Virus record (IMG/VR): IMGVR_UViG_3300025711_000083 | Location: 1 to 33,898 of that record | Source: a virus | Length of the DNA stretch: 33,898 nucleotides | Direction: 5' to 3' (one strand) | Part shown: piece after piece, positions 7,271-30,667 of the stretch | Layout of the letters: each line of letters starts with the position of its first letter | Numbering within the stretch: position 1 is the stretch's first letter | The notes under the pieces: generated by a model | The model's input: only the letters and a program-made list of their open reading frames with translations | Database searches by the model: none | Told to the model about the DNA's origin: nothing | Position numbers and translations under genes: made by a program

Positions 7271-7299
7271 GCGCAGTGTTACACCAATAGTCACTGCGC
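7271..7299. terminator. Inverted repeat between convergent ogr and the GIY-YIG gene
   Basis: GCGCAGTG (7271-7278) and CACTGCGC (7292-7299) form a perfect 8-bp stem with a 13-base loop between two convergent genes. There is no strong T-tract on either side, so terminator function is a guess from position and stem strength. Confidence 0.4.
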
Positions 7300-7845
7300 T
7301 GCTAATCTCCTTTTGAAAGCCCGCTCATCTGCAATCTCCATCAATCTTGCCTCTGCTGCAGCCTGGCTGCGCATTCCTGAAAGCGTCACTTTAAAGCCAT
7401 GAGCATTTCCCTGAATGTTCAATGGTAGGGGAATCGATGCGATCAGCGTGTCCTCAAGTTCCCATGGCGCATCGACAGGAATCCAGTGAACTTTGGCATT
7501 CTTTTCCATCCAGGCATCAAGCCACTGCTCGCCCGGGTGAGTGAACGTCATTCTGGAGCCAGATCCAACGCGGCGCAGGGGAAAGTTGCTTTCACTGCTC
7601 AGTAACACGCCAAGTGTACGTCTGAGCGTTGAACCTGCAGCATTGCCGCTATAGTGCGTTTTGATACGCTTTCTCAAATTCGAGCGACTATTCGGTTTCC
7701 CGCGCTGATCTGGCGAAATGCCGACGTACAGTAACGTGTAGCCATCACAGGTAATGCAACCCTCTGCCGGTACGCCCGGGGGGATTTCTTTAAACCACCA
7801 AAAATAGACGCCGTTCACTGCGGGAACCGGCGTTGGCTTACTCAT
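7291..7845 (-). CDS. GIY-YIG domain protein (putative nuclease)
   Basis: The product is a 184-residue protein with the core of a GIY-YIG nuclease: GVYFWWF near residue 12 in place of GIY, LLYVGIS near residue 38 in place of YIG, and the helix arginine in NLRKRIKTHY. A late acidic residue in the WELEDTLIAS segment, followed by the family-like PLNIQGN, could be the metal-binding Glu. The frame is open to 7890, but the ATG at 7845 has AGGA 8 bases upstream and the outer ATG has none. It lies opposite to the late operon between ogr and attP, a usual cargo position. A role in defence or DNA processing is possible; nothing here defines the target. Confidence 0.7.
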   Translation of the reverse strand: MSKPTPVPAVNGVYFWWFKEIPPGVPAEGCITCDGYTLLYVGISPDQRGKPNSRSNLRKRIKTHYSGNAAGSTLRRTLGVLLSSESNFPLRRVGSGSRMTFTHPGEQWLDAWMEKNAKVHWIPVDAPWELEDTLIASIPLPLNIQGNAHGFKVTLSGMRSQAAAEARLMEIADERAFKRRLAAQ

Positions 7846-7969
7846 GACTTCCGTCCTGCTGTAAGTTTTCTCAGGGTAATGGTTAAACATACATATTCAC
7901 TGTTCAGTCTGGTTACTGATATTTTACCTAATCCTAAACAATAACTAATTGATTTTTGCCGGAGGGTTT

Positions 7970-8693: not shown

Positions 8694-8848
8694 TAGAATC
8701 CTAATGAATGTTCGTGTATTTTTTATTTAAACATAATTTTTGGCGGTTTGCATTGAGCAGATTACTAGGTAGAGATGTAACTTACGGTGAACGGATTCTG
8801 GTTCTTTTCTTAATTGTTTTTTGTTTTTTTTGCATTAGGAGTATTATA

Positions 8849-9589
8849 ATGAATGTATTTGAATGGCTTTTTTGTACACTAACAAACATAGCTAGTGGCA
8901 ATAAGGATTTAGTCCAGTTTTTCGTCGCATTTGGTACTGTTGCATCGGTAATGGTTGCATTATATATTTCAATTAGAAATAATAAAAGAGATACATTCGA
9001 ACGGAATTTTTCTTTACTTTTAGAACAACACAATGAACAGTTGAATGCTCTTCTTTCACGAGACGATTTCGGAGATAAATTATCGAATGTGTTGGGGTTT
9101 TCAGGAAGTAAAGATTTGATGTCGGCAAATCAGCGAATGCATAAACTAGATTCTTATTATGGTAGCTATTTTAGAGTTCTTTATTATTTGTTGAATCATA
9201 TTGACAGGAATTATTACGGATACATTTTTACTCATAAAAAAAAGAAGTTTTATACAAGTATGGTTAGATCGTTTTTAAACTCAGATATAACTCTTCTCTT
9301 AATAATAAATGTGGCACATGCTACTAAAGGTAATCAGTATTATGGATACAGATGTTTAATTGAAAAGTATTCATATCTAGAGCACTTGGTTATTGATGGT
9401 GAGGTTTTTGTTTCTGGTTGCCGTGAAGATGTTAGAAATGGATTGGCTTGGGAGAATGGTATCGATGCTAATTCTTATATAACAAGACTTCAAATACTCG
9501 ATGATATTTGCAAAGTATTTCCATTGTCATCTTTTGGTGATAATGATTGGAAGGAGCATGTAATAAGTGTCAAGGGGCAGTTAATCTAA
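8849..9589 (+). CDS. Putative AbiC-like abortive infection membrane protein
   Basis: The product is 246 residues from this start. A single membrane segment lies at about residues 22-44 (LVQFFVAFGTVASVMVALYI), followed by a soluble helical domain. The stretch SYYGSYFRVLYYLLNHIDRN and a later YGYRCLIEKYSYLEHLVI resemble the putative phage abortive infection (AbiC-like) family. The frame is open to an ATG at 8708, which would add another hydrophobic segment, but AGGAG stands 7 bases before 8849 and no ribosome site precedes 8708. The gene is strikingly AT-rich compared with the structural genes, indicating recent acquisition. Its place beside attP/int is a classic cargo position. The defence role is inferred from resemblance only. 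Confidence 0.65.
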   Translation: MNVFEWLFCTLTNIASGNKDLVQFFVAFGTVASVMVALYISIRNNKRDTFERNFSLLLEQHNEQLNALLSRDDFGDKLSNVLGFSGSKDLMSANQRMHKLDSYYGSYFRVLYYLLNHIDRNYYGYIFTHKKKKFYTSMVRSFLNSDITLLLIINVAHATKGNQYYGYRCLIEKYSYLEHLVIDGEVFVSGCREDVRNGLAWENGIDANSYITRLQILDDICKVFPLSSFGDNDWKEHVISVKGQLI

Positions 9590-10823: not shown

Positions 10824-11375
10824 TCAAATTCTACTTTGTAAGCCTCTAATAAAAACATTGTAGCTACCAGACAAATTTCCCTCGATACTCAGAATCTTAC
10901 CTATAGCTCTTGAACCAGAAACTTTTTGATATTTTTTCTTGGTCAAATTGATTAGCTCTTGAGCGGCATTGCCTAGCCTGTCTGGATTGCGGAATTTTTG
11001 ATTATTTTGATGTCGCGAAAGTCGCGGTATTTCTAGAGCAGCTTCGACTGAAGCTAAATCACCAAGATACCAACTTTCAAGTTCGTGGCAAGCGATGCGT
11101 ATTAATACATCATCCTTGCCAGCATTAGTACAGATTTCAGACAGTCTTCCTTTTATTGTGGGGCCATCTCCACTATCTTTATCTCGGATTACAATGAAGA
11201 CCGTATCCGGAGTCATCCATCTGCTTAATTTTTTTTCAAGATTTTTTTCTAAATCTTGTTTGCCTTCAAAAGAAATATACCGAACACAACTGTCCGCTGG
11301 TAACAAACGCGGTAATAGTCCTTTCAGCATCTCCTCGGCTGATAACTCTTCTAAAAAGAAAGCATATGTTGTCAT
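10824..11375 (-). CDS. DUF4276-like (TOPRIM-like) partner of the AAA ATPase
   Basis: The product is a 183-residue protein resembling DUF4276, which is commonly paired with AAA ATPases. Visible features are an early acidic motif (FFLEELSAEEML, residues 6-17), an aspartate pair in IVIRDKDSGDG (Asp65, Asp67), and the HELESWYLGD motif at residues 97-106. The Glu plus DxD pattern is what a TOPRIM-type metal-dependent nuclease would have, so it is the likely effector. Its ATG overlaps the stop of the ATPase by 4 bases (ATGA), showing translational coupling. The pair looks like a two-component abortive infection system of the OLD/AbiL/PARIS kind. Exact type and nuclease activity are inferred. Confidence 0.72.
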   Translation of the reverse strand: MTTYAFFLEELSAEEMLKGLLPRLLPADSCVRYISFEGKQDLEKNLEKKLSRWMTPDTVFIVIRDKDSGDGPTIKGRLSEICTNAGKDDVLIRIACHELESWYLGDLASVEAALEIPRLSRHQNNQKFRNPDRLGNAAQELINLTKKKYQKVSGSRAIGKILSIEGNLSGSYNVFIRGLQSRI

Positions 11376-12571
11376 TGAGGATCAACCCCCGGGAAGAATC
11401 CTTGTTTCCATAAATATCCCATTTTATCGCCGTCATCCATATATGCCACTAGTTGCGGATCTTCTGAGGCTCTGTAAGAACGGGTATATCCATTAGTTTT
11501 AGTTAACCAAAATACTTCATCAACATTAACCGCATTCAAGAAATCAGGAGAATGTGTTGAAACGAAAACTTGTCCTCCGCGCTCAGTATAAGCTCTAAAT
11601 TCCTCTGCTAGTTCAACGAGTAGCTTAGGATATAACTGATTCTCAGGTTCTTCAACACAAAGTAATGGATGTGGTTCAGGGTCATGTAGTTGCACTAAAT
11701 ATGCAAACATTTTTAATGTACCGTCAGAAACATATCTGTCAATAAACGGATCAGCAAAGCTTCCATCCTGAAAACCTAATAATAAACGTCCATCTTGTGT
11801 ACTAATTGGTTTTACGTCAGATACCCCAGGAACCCTGTGCTTCATAGAATCTATTATTGTTGCAAAAATTTCCGGGTAATTATCATGAATATTTCTAGCA
11901 ACTAATTGAAGATTATCGCCTGTTGCAGATAAGTGGTCTTCGTAACCAATGGCATCCTTAGAGCCTCTCGCGGCATTAATGTGAAAGTCAGAAACATGCC
12001 AGTTTTCAATAAGCTGTCTGAAAGCACTAGCTGCTTTAAATTTGCTAAATTGTCCTAATCCCTTTATTGCTAAAACATCATCAGCATCAAGTTGCTGTGA
12101 CTCTCTGTTTAATTCTTCATCTTCTTTGCTAAAGTCATCTTCGTTTACAATTGCAGTACCTTGACCTTTGGCAAAATCTAAGAAATGGTAAGGGGAACCA
12201 TACGCCCCCCGCTTATATCTTAAAATCTCTCTGTCTACAAAAACTTTATTTCTTGTATCTTCTTTTAATTTTAGAATGTATGTGACTAATCTTTCATATC
12301 CGCTTATCTCTAATCGAAATTTGACTTCTATCTCAATTGTACGGTCATCTTGGTTTACACCGCGACTAAGAAGTTCATCAAACCCCCCTCGTTTTTGTAC
12401 TGCGCTTCTAACATTGAACGTTAAGCAATCTTTCAGAAAACCAAAAACGTCAAAAAGTGTTGTTTTTCCAACACCATTTGCTCCGACTATTACGCAGAAT
12501 TTAGGGATGTTGTTCATTTCAAGATCTTGAAATGACTTGAAGTTTTTTAATTTTATCGCTTCGATGAACAT
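11372..12571 (-). CDS. OLD-like AAA/ABC-type ATPase, probable phage defence
   Basis: The product is a 399-residue ABC/SMC-like ATPase. The Walker A motif GANGVGKTT is at residues 30-38, a signature-like VSDGTLKM lies near residue 282, Walker B LLCVEEPE is at 303-310, and the switch histidine is in STHSP at 338-342. It begins MFIEAIKLKNFKSF, the usual start of OLD/RecF-type ATPases. It has no C-terminal TOPRIM domain of its own; the next gene appears to supply it. AAGGAG precedes the ATG directly after the cI stop, an 8-base gap, so it is the second gene of the cI transcript and should be made in lysogens. Base composition is more AT-rich than the core genes. Confidence 0.8.
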   Translation of the reverse strand: MFIEAIKLKNFKSFQDLEMNNIPKFCVIVGANGVGKTTLFDVFGFLKDCLTFNVRSAVQKRGGFDELLSRGVNQDDRTIEIEVKFRLEISGYERLVTYILKLKEDTRNKVFVDREILRYKRGAYGSPYHFLDFAKGQGTAIVNEDDFSKEDEELNRESQQLDADDVLAIKGLGQFSKFKAASAFRQLIENWHVSDFHINAARGSKDAIGYEDHLSATGDNLQLVARNIHDNYPEIFATIIDSMKHRVPGVSDVKPISTQDGRLLLGFQDGSFADPFIDRYVSDGTLKMFAYLVQLHDPEPHPLLCVEEPENQLYPKLLVELAEEFRAYTERGGQVFVSTHSPDFLNAVNVDEVFWLTKTNGYTRSYRASEDPQLVAYMDDGDKMGYLWKQGFFPGVDPQ

Positions 12572-18526: not shown

Positions 18527-18614
18527 TGATTTCGCACCATGGGAAACTCCCTCCTATATGGCATCCTGCGGTTTGAGAAAGCAGTGCATGTCTATGGTGC
18601 ATGGATTCGCATGA
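18510..18614 (+). CDS. Possible 34-codon gene overlapping the SOS gene
   Basis: The ATG at 18510, directly after AGGGCAGG, opens a 34-residue frame (starts MRVRISDFAPWETPSYMASC; 3 Cys) that overlaps the previous gene by 17 bases. The overlap would give translational coupling under LexA control. It ends about 95 bp before cos. No family is recognised. It could be the second half of a two-peptide antirepressor or a chance frame. Confidence 0.35.
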   Translation: MRVRISDFAPWETPSYMASCGLRKQCMSMVHGFA

Positions 18615-18671
18615 TCCAAATAGGATCGCAACAGGTCGGGGCCGCCAGAACTGGCGCGCTTTCCGGCCTGT

Positions 18672-18685
18672 CATGCACCTGCATG
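18672..18685. repeat. Palindrome next to cos
   Basis: CATGCA and TGCATG form a perfect 6-bp inverted repeat around CC, 24 bp upstream of the predicted cos nick region. A terminase-binding role is plausible from position only. Confidence 0.4.
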
Positions 18686-18708
18686 AAAACCACTACACAA
18701 AGCGGGCA

Positions 18709-18727
18709 GGCGTGGCGGGGATACGAT
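18709..18727. other. cos: Cohesive-end site cos
   Basis: GGCGTGGCGGGG at 18709-18720 matches the first 12 bases of the 19-base 186/P2-type cos (186 GGCGTGGCGGGGAAAGCAC, as recalled). The remainder differs (ATACGAT). It lies where P2 phages have cos, between the A/tum end and gene Q. The terminase (M and P) would cut here to form the linear virion genome, so the RES gene would be the first gene at the left end. Confidence 0.7.
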
Positions 18728-18755
18728 TGCGCGCTTATTTCAAAACGGCAATAAT
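18727..18755 (+). promoter_or_regulatory. Candidate promoter of the RES gene
   Basis: TTGCGC (18727-18732), a 17-base spacer and AATAAT (18750-18755) lie between cos and the RES gene. The -35 is weak, the -10 good. No Ogr site or LexA box is present, so constitutive expression is expected. Confidence 0.4.
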
Positions 18756-18786
18756 TAACTTTTCAAAACCTATCCTAGGAAAGACA

Positions 18787-19941
18787 ATGTTTATCTGCGA
18801 AAACCATATCGTCGAACCAAACGTAAAAAATCATGTTCGTCTGCAGACTGAAAACAACATATGTGTGTTTTGTAATACTGTTACAAAATGCCTAGATACT
18901 GATTCGATAGAAGCTCGAAATTTGCTAAAAGCAATCCTACGTTATAACTTTGATGAAGTTCTCTATAATACACATATTGGTGGTGACTATTTTACAGGTT
19001 TTTTATTAGCGGATGATTATATATTTTGCAAGGATATCCAAAGTCAAACGGAAGAGTTTACTGATCTTGATAGTGAAATATGGAGTATGGGGTTCACAAC
19101 TCCAGGTGAGATTGATATACACTCAGGGCATGATCAAGATGGCATGAGGAATATGCCGTTTATGTCAATTATTAACTCATACCATCCATTTATAGAAAAA
19201 TTATCTAAGAAACTTGCTGAGGTAAATTACCATGATTTTGAAGATGAATTGAGGGATATTATTAAAGATTATGGAAATTCTTTTGCCAAAATAATTGAGG
19301 GTAGTTCTGTAGTTTATCGTGCTCGCGTAGGGACTGCTGGTTATAAAAAAGCTCATGAAGATTTTAACCGTGAAGGTAAGAAAATATTCGTTCCATACAA
19401 AAATAAAGAAATAGGTTCTGTTCCTCCTCTTAAAGCTACAGCAGGTAGAGCTAATAGGGTAGGGGTTTCATACTTATATTGCGCGACTGATAGCTATACC
19501 GCGATCGCTGAAGTTAGACCTCATCCTACAGATGTAGTTTCTTTAGGTAAATTTAGCGTGTCACGAGCTTTAAAAGTATTCGATTTTTCATATCCAAATT
19601 TATTAGACTTTATCGAAAATGAAGATACTTTATTGAGAATGATTCCTTATGCTAAAATGGCGGGTATTTTTAATACCGCTACACCACCCTCTTTAGAGGG
19701 AAGGTATAGTGTTTCACAGCTCATATCTGACTGCATAAGAAAGGAGGGGTACGATGGCATACAGTTTTCAAGCACTGTTGGTGAAGGGAAGAATTTAGTT
19801 GTGTTTAATCCTAATAACATGGAATTTATTGAGGGTAGTTCAACGGTAATTGAAATTGATAAAGTGCAATATATATACGAAGAAAAACAAGTAGTAGGGA
19901 TGAATGATCAGTGGGAAATTTATTATAATGAAGTTGAGTAG
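18787..19941 (+). CDS. RES-domain protein with N-terminal Cys-rich domain
   Basis: The product is a 384-residue protein. The C-terminal half is a RES domain: YRARVG (Arg178), GRANRVGVSYLYCA (221-233), IAEVRPHP with Glu242, and IQFSSTVGEGKNLVVFNP with Ser328/329, supplying the R, E and S residues that name the family. Characterised RES toxins such as MbcT degrade or modify NAD+. The N-terminal part carries C-x2-C pairs (Cys4, CVFC at 26-29, Cys35), as in RES proteins with an N-terminal HEPN/RES-associated domain. The frame is open back to 18601, across cos, but AGGAAAG precedes the ATG at 18787. It is very AT-rich, has no visible antitoxin gene, and sits beside cos, where P2 carries its defence gene tin. 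Confidence 0.75.
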   Translation: MFICENHIVEPNVKNHVRLQTENNICVFCNTVTKCLDTDSIEARNLLKAILRYNFDEVLYNTHIGGDYFTGFLLADDYIFCKDIQSQTEEFTDLDSEIWSMGFTTPGEIDIHSGHDQDGMRNMPFMSIINSYHPFIEKLSKKLAEVNYHDFEDELRDIIKDYGNSFAKIIEGSSVVYRARVGTAGYKKAHEDFNREGKKIFVPYKNKEIGSVPPLKATAGRANRVGVSYLYCATDSYTAIAEVRPHPTDVVSLGKFSVSRALKVFDFSYPNLLDFIENEDTLLRMIPYAKMAGIFNTATPPSLEGRYSVSQLISDCIRKEGYDGIQFSSTVGEGKNLVVFNPNNMEFIEGSSTVIEIDKVQYIYEEKQVVGMNDQWEIYYNEVE

Positions 19942-27520: not shown

Positions 27521-27914
27521 GTCGGTGCCTTATGTCTGCGATAATCCGGACAAGCTGCATCTGTTTGTGGATAACGGTTCCCTGGTGGCAACCGGCGCGC
27601 TGTCCATGTCGTGGGAATACCGTTATACCCTGAACGTGGTGCTCGAGGATTTCAGCGGCGACCAGAATCTGCTTATGGCTCCGGTGCTGCTGTGGCTGAA
27701 AGCGAATCAGACGGATGCTATCAATAACCCAGACCTGCGTGAAAAGCTGTTCACCTTTGAGGTCGATATTCTGCGCAACGACGTGTGTGATATCAGCCTG
27801 AACCTGCAGCTGACGGAGCGCGTGCTGGTCAGCACTGACGGCGCTGTCTCAACGGTTGAGGCGGAGCCGGAACCCGACGAGCCAGAAGAAATGTGGACGG
27901 TGAAACGTGGATAA
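27483..27914 (+). CDS. R: Tail completion protein R
   Basis: The product is a 143-residue homologue of P2 gpR (155 residues), needed for tail completion. The start MNKPQSLRNALNKSVPYV and the MSWEYRYTLNVVLEDFSGD stretch are family features. The start is GTG with AGGAG 7 bases upstream. The C-terminus is acidic (EPEPDEPEE). S overlaps its last codons. Confidence 0.92.
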   Translation: MNKPQSLRNALNKSVPYVCDNPDKLHLFVDNGSLVATGALSMSWEYRYTLNVVLEDFSGDQNLLMAPVLLWLKANQTDAINNPDLREKLFTFEVDILRNDVCDISLNLQLTERVLVSTDGAVSTVEAEPEPDEPEEMWTVKRG

Positions 27915-28356
27915 TCTGCATAAGGTAGATGAGTGGCTGGCGGCACTGCTGGCGAATCTTGAGCCTGCTGCCCGTCAGCGCATGATGCGGGAGCTGGCGC
28001 AGGCACTGCGCCGGAATCAGCAAAACAATATTCGGCTACAGCGTAATCCTGACGGCAGCGGATACGAGCCGCGAAAAGTGACAGCCCGAACTAAAAAGGG
28101 GCGAATTAAGCGGCAGATGTTTGCGAAGCTGCGCACGACCAAATACCTGAAAACTGCAGCCAGCGCGGATTCAGCCAGCGTGCAGTTTACAGGGAAGGTG
28201 CAGCGGATGGCGCGGGTTCACCATTACGGTTTGCGTGATTATGTTTATCGCAACGGACCGAAGGTACGCTACCGAGAGCGGAAATTACTAGGAATAAATC
28301 ATAATTCCACAGATGTGATACAAAGCATGTTATTAACTTGGGTGTCTAAAAAGTAA
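27907..28356 (+). CDS. S: Tail completion protein S
   Basis: The product is a 149-residue homologue of P2 gpS (150 residues), which acts in tail completion and joining. The family start (DNLHKVDEWLAALLANLEPAARQRMMRELA) and the FAKLRTTKYLK motif are present, and the basic middle region with HHYGLRD is conserved. The start is GTG, overlapping R. Its last 20 residues turn AT-rich (KLLGINHNSTDVIQSML), which suggests the adjoining insertion replaced the original end. Confidence 0.92.
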   Translation: MDNLHKVDEWLAALLANLEPAARQRMMRELAQALRRNQQNNIRLQRNPDGSGYEPRKVTARTKKGRIKRQMFAKLRTTKYLKTAASADSASVQFTGKVQRMARVHHYGLRDYVYRNGPKVRYRERKLLGINHNSTDVIQSMLLTWVSKK

Positions 28357-28397
28357 GCGCATTTCCTCTTGATGAATGATTGACAAGAGAAATTCGC
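28357..28397. terminator. Hairpin after S at the edge of the insertion
   Basis: GCGCATTTCCTCTTG (28357-28371) pairs with CAAGAGAAATTCGC (28384-28397) with one bulge and one mismatch, around a 12-base loop. It starts directly after the S stop. No T-run follows. It may be the old end of the O-to-S transcript. Confidence 0.45.
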
Positions 28398-28408
28398 TGG
28401 TAGATGAT
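28380..28408 (+). promoter_or_regulatory. Predicted promoter of the membrane/PcfJ-like insert
   Basis: A perfect TTGACA (28380-28385), a 17-base spacer and GATGAT (28403-28408) predict a start near 28415. The promoter is independent of Ogr, so the insert should be expressed in the lysogen. It overlaps the hairpin after S. Confidence 0.55.
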
Positions 28409-28441
28409 TTAATAGGCTTTTAATTGACTGAGTTAGTTATT

Positions 28442-28825
28442 GTGAAAGATCTTATCCTAGTGCTGCAAGTTGTACTAACATGGCCTACAGCTTTTATTTT
28501 TGCTTTATGCATATTATATCGCCCAATAACTCTTTTGCTAAAGAGAATAGTCGAAAGCAATACGGCGAAAGCAAAGCTAGGTTTCGTAGAACTCGAACTC
28601 GGTGAGTTGGCTAAAAGAGGAAAAAATGCTGTAGATACTTTTAATGAGTTATCAATCACAATGGCAAAAACCAGACAGTTAGAGTTGGAGATTACTAAAG
28701 AAAATTTTTCTCATTCTTTTTCCTCAAGTCAGCAAGTTAAATTGAATGGTTTAATGCTGGAGTTGGAAAGGAAAATAACTCACCTTGAAGGACAGATAGA
28801 TGAAAGTTTATCTATTGAAAAATAA
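28442..28825 (+). CDS. Membrane-anchored coiled-coil protein of unknown function
   Basis: The product is about 127 residues with an N-terminal membrane segment (LILVLQVVLTWPTAFIFALCILY), a short basic stretch (LLKRIVES) and then a charged helical tail rich in Glu/Lys/Leu that is probably coiled coil. The start is uncertain: GTG at 28442 or TTG at 28424, neither with a strong ribosome site. I prefer GTG because the predicted transcript begins near 28415. The next gene starts 26 bases before its end with a good ribosome site, so the two are coupled. It is AT-rich and absent from P2 and 186. The topology suggests an anchor or sensor for the partner protein. Confidence 0.6.
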   Translation: MKDLILVLQVVLTWPTAFIFALCILYRPITLLLKRIVESNTAKAKLGFVELELGELAKRGKNAVDTFNELSITMAKTRQLELEITKENFSHSFSSSQQVKLNGLMLELERKITHLEGQIDESLSIEK

Positions 28826-30014
28826 GATTGTTATATCTTTTTCACCTGTTATTTCTGTGGCGATAAAGGTCTACGTTCGAGATGGGCAGGTTTTGTCTGA
28901 TATCTATCATGAGAGGAATGTTCAAAAAGGTGAGGTTGATTGTGGAATACCTCTTTTCAATAGCCATGTGATGGGTAATGATGCAGTGGAGCATCTACTT
29001 CATATGTTGACTGTCAATGAGAGTAATAATTTTGATAAAATCATACAGTATAATGATGCTCAAATCGAAATATATAATTCTATAAATGCAAGCAAATCTC
29101 TTAGTGAGCTTTTTTCAGATTGTGGTAATCTTGCGTGGGGGATTATTTTAAATAATTACTACGGATACAATTTCCATACCGTTGAATATTTGGCGAGGAT
29201 GAAAAGAAGAGCCCTTTTTTCTGTCTTAGCTGAAACCCCGCCTAAAGAAAAAATAATAAACTTATTAAAAAAGACTTCAATGCTTCATGGGCGTAGATAT
29301 GAGTTCATCTTGTTATCAAGATGCTTGAAAGATAATGACCTCATAGAGGCTTATAAGCACAAGCAATCAGTTACTTTGCAAGAGTTATATTTGGCATATT
29401 ATTACCGTGCATTATCTGGAACGACTCTTTTGAGTAACATTTGTCGCGATAAAAAGGATTTTTTGAGAGAGTACCGAGTTGGGATGCTGTCACTTGTCAA
29501 ATTGGTGAAAGATAGTATCCGTATCGGAGAAAATATTGGTATTAAAAAATCTTATGACATTGTTATGGGTTGTGATTGCCGCGAAGATGTTAAATCCTTA
29601 CACGATAAATGGTCGCAAAGGTTAAGAGATACGACGAAATATTTAAGAGATGATGTCCATTTTGAAGAACCAAGTTTAATGGTTTCAGAGGGGATCGAAT
29701 TCATCAACTCCATTAATAAACTTATCACAGAAGGTAAGGAAATGGAGCATTGTTTGGCATCATATAAGATAAAGGCACTGAATGGCGAAAGCTATGTCTA
29801 TAAAGTTAGAACCCATTGGAACGAACGCGTGACAGTGGAGTTAGGACTTTCAAATGGTATTTATATACTTAAGCAAGCTAAAGGTTTCCGGAATGCAGAA
29901 CCAAGTAACTTGGCGTTAAACTATGTTCATACTTGGTTGGAAACGGAAAATAAAAAGTTAAAGAGATTATTACAGGAATATGAGCATTATTTGAACAATG
30001 CTATGAGTGCTTGA
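28800..30014 (+). CDS. PcfJ-like domain protein, function unknown
   Basis: The product is a 404-residue protein. Residues about 300-385 resemble the PcfJ-like domain: EGKEMEHCLASYKIKALNGES with the His-Cys pair, YVYKVRTHWNERVTVEL, and LKQAKGFRNAEPSNLAL. The rest (residues 60-280) is helical and not recognised. AAGGA lies 7 bases before the ATG, inside the end of the membrane-protein gene. PcfJ was named in an enterococcal conjugative plasmid and its biochemical role is unknown. The gene is AT-rich, has its own operon promoter and ends just before the PV site. A defence or conflict role is inferred from its cargo position. Confidence 0.65.
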   Translation: MKVYLLKNKIVISFSPVISVAIKVYVRDGQVLSDIYHERNVQKGEVDCGIPLFNSHVMGNDAVEHLLHMLTVNESNNFDKIIQYNDAQIEIYNSINASKSLSELFSDCGNLAWGIILNNYYGYNFHTVEYLARMKRRALFSVLAETPPKEKIINLLKKTSMLHGRRYEFILLSRCLKDNDLIEAYKHKQSVTLQELYLAYYYRALSGTTLLSNICRDKKDFLREYRVGMLSLVKLVKDSIRIGENIGIKKSYDIVMGCDCREDVKSLHDKWSQRLRDTTKYLRDDVHFEEPSLMVSEGIEFINSINKLITEGKEMEHCLASYKIKALNGESYVYKVRTHWNERVTVELGLSNGIYILKQAKGFRNAEPSNLALNYVHTWLETENKKLKRLLQEYEHYLNNAMSA

Positions 30015-30024
30015 TTAGTTTAAT

Positions 30025-30042
30025 TGTACCATCGCCCCCACA
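30025..30042 (+). promoter_or_regulatory. Ogr activator site of late promoter PV
   Basis: TGT (30025-30027) and ACA (30040-30042) are exactly 12 bases apart, immediately after the inserted genes. The centre is 55 bp upstream of the V ATG at 30089. This is the late promoter for V-W-J-I-H, left intact by the insertion. Confidence 0.78.
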
Positions 30043-30088
30043 AGTTCCTTCTTTTTAATTACCCAAAGTATTCATTCACTCTATGTGT

Positions 30089-30667
30089 ATGAATACGCAA
30101 CTCACAGAAATCATGCGCCTTATCACCAACCTGATCCGCACCGGCACCGTGACCGAAGTGGACCGGGAAAACTGGCTGTGCCGGGTGAAAGTCGGCGAAC
30201 TCGAAACCAACTGGATTAACTGGCTGACGCTGCGCGCCGGTGGTGCACGCACATGGTGGTGCCCGTCACCGGATGAGCAGGTGGTGGTGCTGAGCATGGG
30301 CGGCAATCTCGAAACTGCGTTTGCGCTGCCCGCTATCTACTCCAGTGAATTTGCGCCGCCGTCGGATTCCGTGGACGGCAGCGTGACGCAGCACCCGGAT
30401 GGGGGCTGGTTTGAGTATGAACCCGCCACCGGGCGCTGGCTCGTCAAAGGCATCAAAACCATGGTGATCGAGGCGGCCAACAATATCACCTTCAAAACAG
30501 CTGAGTTTGTGGTGGAGGCCGACACCACGCGCATCAACAGCGAGGTGGTGATCAACGGCGGAGTCACCCAGGGCGGCGGCGCGATGAGTTCCAACGGGAT
30601 CGTGGTGGATGACCATATGCACGACAAAGTTAAATCAGGCGGCGACACGTCGGGAGGTCCGGTATGA
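30089..30667 (+). CDS. V: Baseplate spike protein
   Basis: The product is a 192-residue spike; P2 gpV has 211 residues. It forms the trimeric membrane-piercing needle at the tail tip. The N-terminal OB-fold part (IRTGTVTEVD, then NWINWLTLRAGGARTWWCPSPDEQV) matches P2 gpV. The C-terminal repeats and HMHDKV, a possible metal-binding HxH, form the spike. The ATG aligns with the P2 start (MNT). An ATG two codons upstream is in frame. No ribosome site is visible, and the predicted late start falls on the ATG. Confidence 0.93.
   Translation: MNTQLTEIMRLITNLIRTGTVTEVDRENWLCRVKVGELETNWINWLTLRAGGARTWWCPSPDEQVVVLSMGGNLETAFALPAIYSSEFAPPSDSVDGSVTQHPDGGWFEYEPATGRWLVKGIKTMVIEAANNITFKTAEFVVEADTTRINSEVVINGGVTQGGGAMSSNGIVVDDHMHDKVKSGGDTSGGPV

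Follow-up and report, generated by a model that had tools for sequence, protein, structure and literature searches.

What is the DNA that a P2-like phage carries between its tail genes S and V, and which function could it serve for the phage or for its host? The question is raised by the window analysed here, i.e. the whole stretch of 33,898 bases of an IMG/VR record, which holds a P2-like phage genome in permuted order. Three moron regions are known in P2-like phages, among them orf30 between S and V (PMC6823313). In the window, the S-V interval consists of two overlapping plus-strand genes, here called A and B in their order (Table 1), and they occupy exactly the site of the P2 orf30 moron, which is variable and holds defence genes in other phages. 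An earlier first-pass annotation, made from the letters alone, had regarded this pair as a candidate for a new anti-phage or conflict system. We give an even chance to the reading that A and B would form a lysogen-expressed, membrane-anchored two-gene cargo operon, the role of which is most likely anti-phage.

Table 1. Positions of the insert, its flanking genes and further cargo of the phage in the 33,898-base window.
Feature	Position	Strand	Remarks
GIY-YIG_2 nuclease-domain protein	7291-7890	minus	PF20815, E 3e-35; just after ogr; no PADLOC match
putAbiC-domain membrane protein	8708-9589	plus	PF16872, E 5e-9; weak AbiP match; between ogr and int
HEC-01A/B (DUF4276 protein + AAA_21 ATPase)	10824-12571	minus	PADLOC E 7e-75, 4e-208
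RES-domain protein	18601-19941	plus	PF08808, E 2.5e-18; at known A-Q (tin/old) hotspot position
P2 gene S, tail completion	27907..28356	plus	PF05069, 9e-38
Putative promoter of the A-B pair	28380..28408	plus	TTGACA-N17-GATGAT; ends 33 nt before gene A
Gene A	28442-28825	plus	127 aa; GTG start, from which relatives align
Gene B, PcfJ-domain protein	28800..30014	plus	404 aa; ATG start within gene A, AAGGA before ATG
PcfJ domain (gene B aa 260-368)	29577..29903	plus	PF14284, 42.9 bits, E 5.4e-11
PV, Ogr-type late-promoter site	30025..30042	plus	TGT-N12-ACA, TGTACCATCGCCCCCACA; intact, 3' of the insert
P2 gene V, baseplate spike	30083..30667	plus	PF04717, 5.8e-18; right border of the insert

Borders of the insert

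The AT-rich two-gene insert described in the first-pass annotation is real, but it begins at 28280 inside S, about 100 nt earlier than had been assumed. The G+C content amounts to 0.56 in S up to position 28279 and to 0.30 in the final 77 bases of the gene, and across the insert it stays at 0.34-0.35 compared to 0.59 in V; the AT-rich span covers positions 28280-30082. For most rows, the matches of the R-S region to at least 39 phages (80-83% identity) do not extend beyond 28280. The foreign segment therefore takes in the final 25 codons of S, which are AT-rich and diverged and were exchanged along with the cargo.

In most of the empty-site phages examined, S and V are separated by 68 bases. 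The PV site had been reported as untouched, and the complete TGT-N12-ACA element is indeed present behind gene B. PV-type elements also follow gene B in two further phage copies of the pair (L001, position 10548; L012, position 9221), and in the empty-site phage 4LV2017 such an element stands directly 3' of S (L066, position 3876). The location between S and V, the intact PV site and the absence of the insert from relatives agree with the layout of lysogenic cargo that had been recognised before. The hairpin at the S stop, which had been taken as the left boundary, was dismissed as a terminator, given a z of -0.5 compared to shuffled sequences, the missing T run and its absence from the other lineages.

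The gene pair and its promoter

The longest frame of gene A opens at TTG 28424; the relatives align from GTG 28442 instead, and this codon is therefore taken as the start. The encoded protein is, as had been noticed, a membrane protein; it contains one membrane helix, which is N-terminal and spans about aa 4-25. It is preceded by 0-1 and followed by 3-5 positive residues, and because the positive charges follow the helix, the positive-inside rule predicts an N-out/C-in topology, in which the C-terminus should be cytosolic. The structure model (pLDDT 77) shows a helical hairpin made of the helices 2-92 and 95-122. The most conserved block, SNTAKAKLGFVE, is invariant in the alignments and lies after the membrane helix. 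Protein A gave no family match above noise in Pfam, PHROGs, NCBIfam and PADLOC, and no match in a sequence search of solved structures. Two membrane proteins of 183-188 aa (L117, L118) share a gene A-like N-terminal membrane and juxtamembrane segment (E 3e-4 to 5e-4), and their tails, judged by eye, resemble HEPN/DUF4145.

The PcfJ-like C-terminus that had been suspected in the 404-residue product of gene B was confirmed by HMM search, since its PF14284 score in Table 1 clearly exceeds the gathering score of 25. All 20 aligned relatives of gene B match PF14284 as well. In this alignment (A5), which was compiled by profile or protein search and includes distant members with 17-22% identity, the residues W271, L308, E311, G312, H317, C318, R343, T345, Q359 and N365 are invariant, so that the motif proposed earlier, a His-Cys pair with a Gln and an Asn near the end, is found again in H317, C318, Q359 and N365, accompanied by T345. 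In a second alignment (A6) of 28 sequences, with distant viral members among them, T345, Q359 and N365 remain invariant. Its loci were retrieved with the E311-G312-H317-C318 pattern, which makes the invariance of these four residues in A6 partly circular, and hence the claim rests on A5. The invariant set of residues suggests a putative active or binding site.

The model of protein B has a pLDDT of 80-94 over aa 290-404 and mostly below 50 before residue ~200. Structural comparison resulted in clear matches to viral PcfJ proteins. Furthermore, aa 297-391 weakly resemble the first half of GNATs, which make up most of the top structural matches, and the model stops after helix 3. A GNAT fold is retained as a lead and not used to identify the PcfJ domain, since Z is at most 6.5 and thus below the level of trust, the Foldseek E values are about 0.7 or higher, and the model lacks the remaining half of a GNAT. 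The sequences of solved structures gave nothing meaningful for protein B, the best match being SecB with an E of 0.04 over 16 residues.

In four diverged phage lineages, each time at the S-V site, and at two Pantoea loci, genes A and B are found together in an unchanged order and with an overlap. The overlap of 26 nt, already recognised in the window, is identical in the four phage lineages and is 4 nt in Pantoea. Identities of the phage copies to the window are at least 97% (L009, L010, L011), 67% (L012), 62% (L001/L013/L014) and 59% (L086); the non-phage copies are situated on a Pantoea piersonii plasmid (L003, 54%) and in Pantoea sp. A4 (L008, 53%). Copies in E. coli prophages were found in 6 of 5,426 complete genomes, at one place each and with 68% DNA identity; for L001, L002 and the STEC309 record, the location between S and V was confirmed by direct reading. 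The pair was present in one of 392 genomes of the family of the Pantoea host and had no match among 50,697 phage records. Searches of 394 genomes from the order and 369 from the class revealed no gene A that lacks a gene B, with the exception of two weak and partial matches. The recurring pairing of the two families that had been expected is thus seen in six diverged lineages, and by this comparison A and B form one conserved unit, an obligate pair.

A promoter of their own, of the non-Ogr type, had also been claimed for the two genes. All six lineages compared (the window lineage, L086, L003, L008, L001 and L012) share a motif TTGAC[A/T]-N17-NANNAT that ends 28-34 nt 5' of gene A. It is thus kept at the same position in six loci, and in each locus it is matched in just 0.05-0.7% of the shuffled upstream regions. 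The six lineages are related and not fully independent, and the flanks of the phage and the Pantoea copies differ completely. A consensus promoter scan by itself is not above chance (8 found, 6.8 expected). The putative promoter lies within the 3' end of S in L001 (about 8904-8932) and L012 (7586-7614), where gene A opens 17 and 7 nt past the S stop, respectively, with no terminator in between. In L001 and L012, the C-terminus of S has therefore been reshaped to carry a promoter within coding sequence. Overall, this is good evidence, drawn from sequence comparison, for a sigma-70-type promoter which would be independent of the late activator. Since such a conserved promoter stands outside the phage late control, the pair should be expressed in lysogens; an additional read-through from the late operon into A and B is possible.

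The S-V site and possible functions of the pair

The S-V flanks are present in 1,057 of the 5,426 E. coli genomes. Among the matches listed, 28 of 51 site-spanning rows contain extra DNA by length, a count that includes some insertion sequences and near-duplicate strains and for which not all rows were checked. Of the 11 distinct cargos other than PcfJ that were read, seven reach an E of 1e-5 or lower against PADLOC models, a proportion to be taken as indicative and not as an unbiased rate, because annotation had partly guided the choice of cargos. These seven are AriA+AriB (PARIS), which is carried by phage 813R9, an AbiU-like AIPR protein, an ApeA-like protein, a NucC-like DUF6602 protein, FRG PDC-S15, DUF2971 PDC-S31 and an AriA/Gabija-like ATPase. 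None of ten structural genes of the window phage matches a PADLOC model. The remaining four cargos match no defence model, among them the single-gene cargos L075, L077 and L081. Hence, the P2 S-V site is indicated to hold recognised defence genes besides several uncharacterised ones. One of the cargos (L073) is a DUF6216 gene; a DUF6216 gene was also noticed in the P2 remnant of the widely used laboratory strain E. coli BL21(DE3), within the spanned S-V flank match (NC_012971.2, about 883611-887532).

The inspection of gene neighbourhoods that had been proposed revealed defence genes both at S-V in other P2-like phages and beside both Pantoea copies. The copy on the Pantoea piersonii plasmid is followed by a gene for a five-helix membrane protein and then by an AbiE-type pair. 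In Pantoea sp. A4, the copy lies near an AAA+HNH pair that matches the candidate defence pair PDC-M01AB, and near transposase-like and integrase-like ORFs as well. The published defence hotspots of P2 are A-Q (tin/old; PMC9122126) and fun/Z (PMC9519451); S-V is not named as a defence hotspot in the available parts of these two publications.

The pair is a good candidate for a defence system because it combines its own conserved promoter with a site at which related phages keep anti-phage genes. In addition to the promoter, pairing in six lineages, purifying selection, the seven defence-like cargos out of 11 and the defence neighbours speak for such a role, as do HEC-01AB and an AbiC/AbiP-like gene elsewhere in the window phage. 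Against it stand the non-defence genes that cargo sites also hold, the strand of A and B, which is plus like that of the late genes and opposite to that of all 11 other cargos, and the mostly solitary occurrence of PcfJ. In the wider PcfJ family, most genes stand alone on chromosomes, on plasmids or in lytic phages and have no gene A beside them, and therefore PcfJ alone is not a defence marker. A defence link of the whole family was rejected, as most of the chromosomal relatives are solitary and reside in stable neighbourhoods.

The fixed order, the overlap and the predicted topology of protein A fit a membrane-anchored complex. Protein A would be placed in the inner membrane with its N-terminus outside and its C-terminus inside, and its cytosolic hairpin may bind protein B and keep it at the membrane. 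The PcfJ pocket (E311, H317-C318, T345, Q359, N365) could then act as an enzyme or effector. Upon infection, the A-B complex would be released or activated, and it might either act at the membrane to block the infecting phage or stop the host cell, i.e. cause abortive infection. That A and B represent a new two-component, membrane-anchored anti-phage system with PcfJ as the effector enzyme, and S-V a third P2 defence hotspot, is a tentative proposal to which we assign somewhat less than an even chance.

Several other explanations have to be weighed. The two genes could represent a toxin-antitoxin or addiction pair, in which a toxic B is kept inactive by A and which serves to stabilise the prophage or plasmid and may or may not also protect against phages. 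A short gene that comes first and overlaps a longer one under a single promoter would suit this reading, the plasmid copy adjoins AbiE genes, and a precedent exists in PD-T4-10, two overlapping ORFs of no known family that proved to be a phage-defending toxin-antitoxin pair (PMC9519451). Nevertheless, a membrane helix would be unusual for a protein antitoxin, the weak ribosome site of gene A and the good one of gene B reverse the usual ratio, and no toxin family was recognised in the pair, so that we regard this reading as unlikely. A lysogenic conversion with a non-defence role, for example an altered envelope or host regulation, also appears rather improbable: a moron site need not carry defence genes, and solitary chromosomal PcfJ genes exist in neighbourhoods without obvious defence genes, but most of the recognised S-V cargo is defence-like and both non-phage copies adjoin defence genes.

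The plus strand, which makes the pair co-directional with the late operon and distinguishes it from the other S-V cargos, would be compatible with a function in the phage cycle, for instance against satellites or in host takeover, the genes being read from the late operon through S. The short, terminator-free distance between the S stop and gene A in L001 and L012 and the PcfJ proteins known from lytic phages point in the same direction. However, the sigma-70-type promoter is kept in all lineages, even within S, the pairs of L003 and L008 have the same promoter outside phages, and most P2-like phages lack the pair; we consider this function quite improbable. Finally, the insert might be passenger DNA with no present function, as its rarity could imply (six of the E. 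coli genomes and none of the phage records). This reading is disfavoured by the selection test and deserves hardly any credit, because dN/dS against the 97% relative is only 0.02 for gene A and 0.06 for gene B, corresponding to strong purifying selection, and the frames are intact in every copy with both genes fully read.

Known systems and further cargo of the window phage

The first-pass annotation knew of no described system with this pair, and the searches agree. In the literature searched no such system was found; it comprised mostly open texts without supplementary tables, which means that a system described in supplementary material could be missed. The uncharacterised PcfJ family is mentioned there only in passing. 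Among the PADLOC and NCBIfam models, gene A has no match and gene B only one to KwaB (E 0.012, aa 70-139), which is not significant. The Kiwa system (KwaA/KwaB) resembles the A-B pair in combining a small membrane protein with a soluble partner. KwaA has several membrane helices, whereas protein A has one and gave no KwaA match.

Other PcfJ proteins, such as PcfJ of the Enterococcus plasmid pCF10 and those of IncI2 and Salmonella plasmids and phages, have the same C-terminal domain with the same invariant residues. In contrast to gene B, they have no adjoining gene for a membrane partner, and their identity to gene B is about 17-25%. PD-T4-10 likewise consists of two small overlapping operon genes on mobile DNA of E. 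coli; its description names no PcfJ domain (PMC9519451). Moron sites of prophages are known to hold cargo of two genes, and the composition of A and B is new.

PcfJ proteins are spread across phages, conjugative plasmids and chromosomes. The A-B pair is compact and has its own promoter and clear invariant residues, and therefore makes a PcfJ activity directly testable. If the defence reading is true, the PcfJ domain would be the effector of a new defence system and S-V would join A-Q and fun/Z as the third P2 defence hotspot, a site that could be mined like the two published ones.

Among the further cargo of the window phage (Table 1), HEC-01A/B sits between the integrase and the repressor region, where P2-like phages do not usually carry cargo. 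The RES-domain protein has no obvious Xre antitoxin partner, and its first 46 aa match another phage family (phrog_28685).
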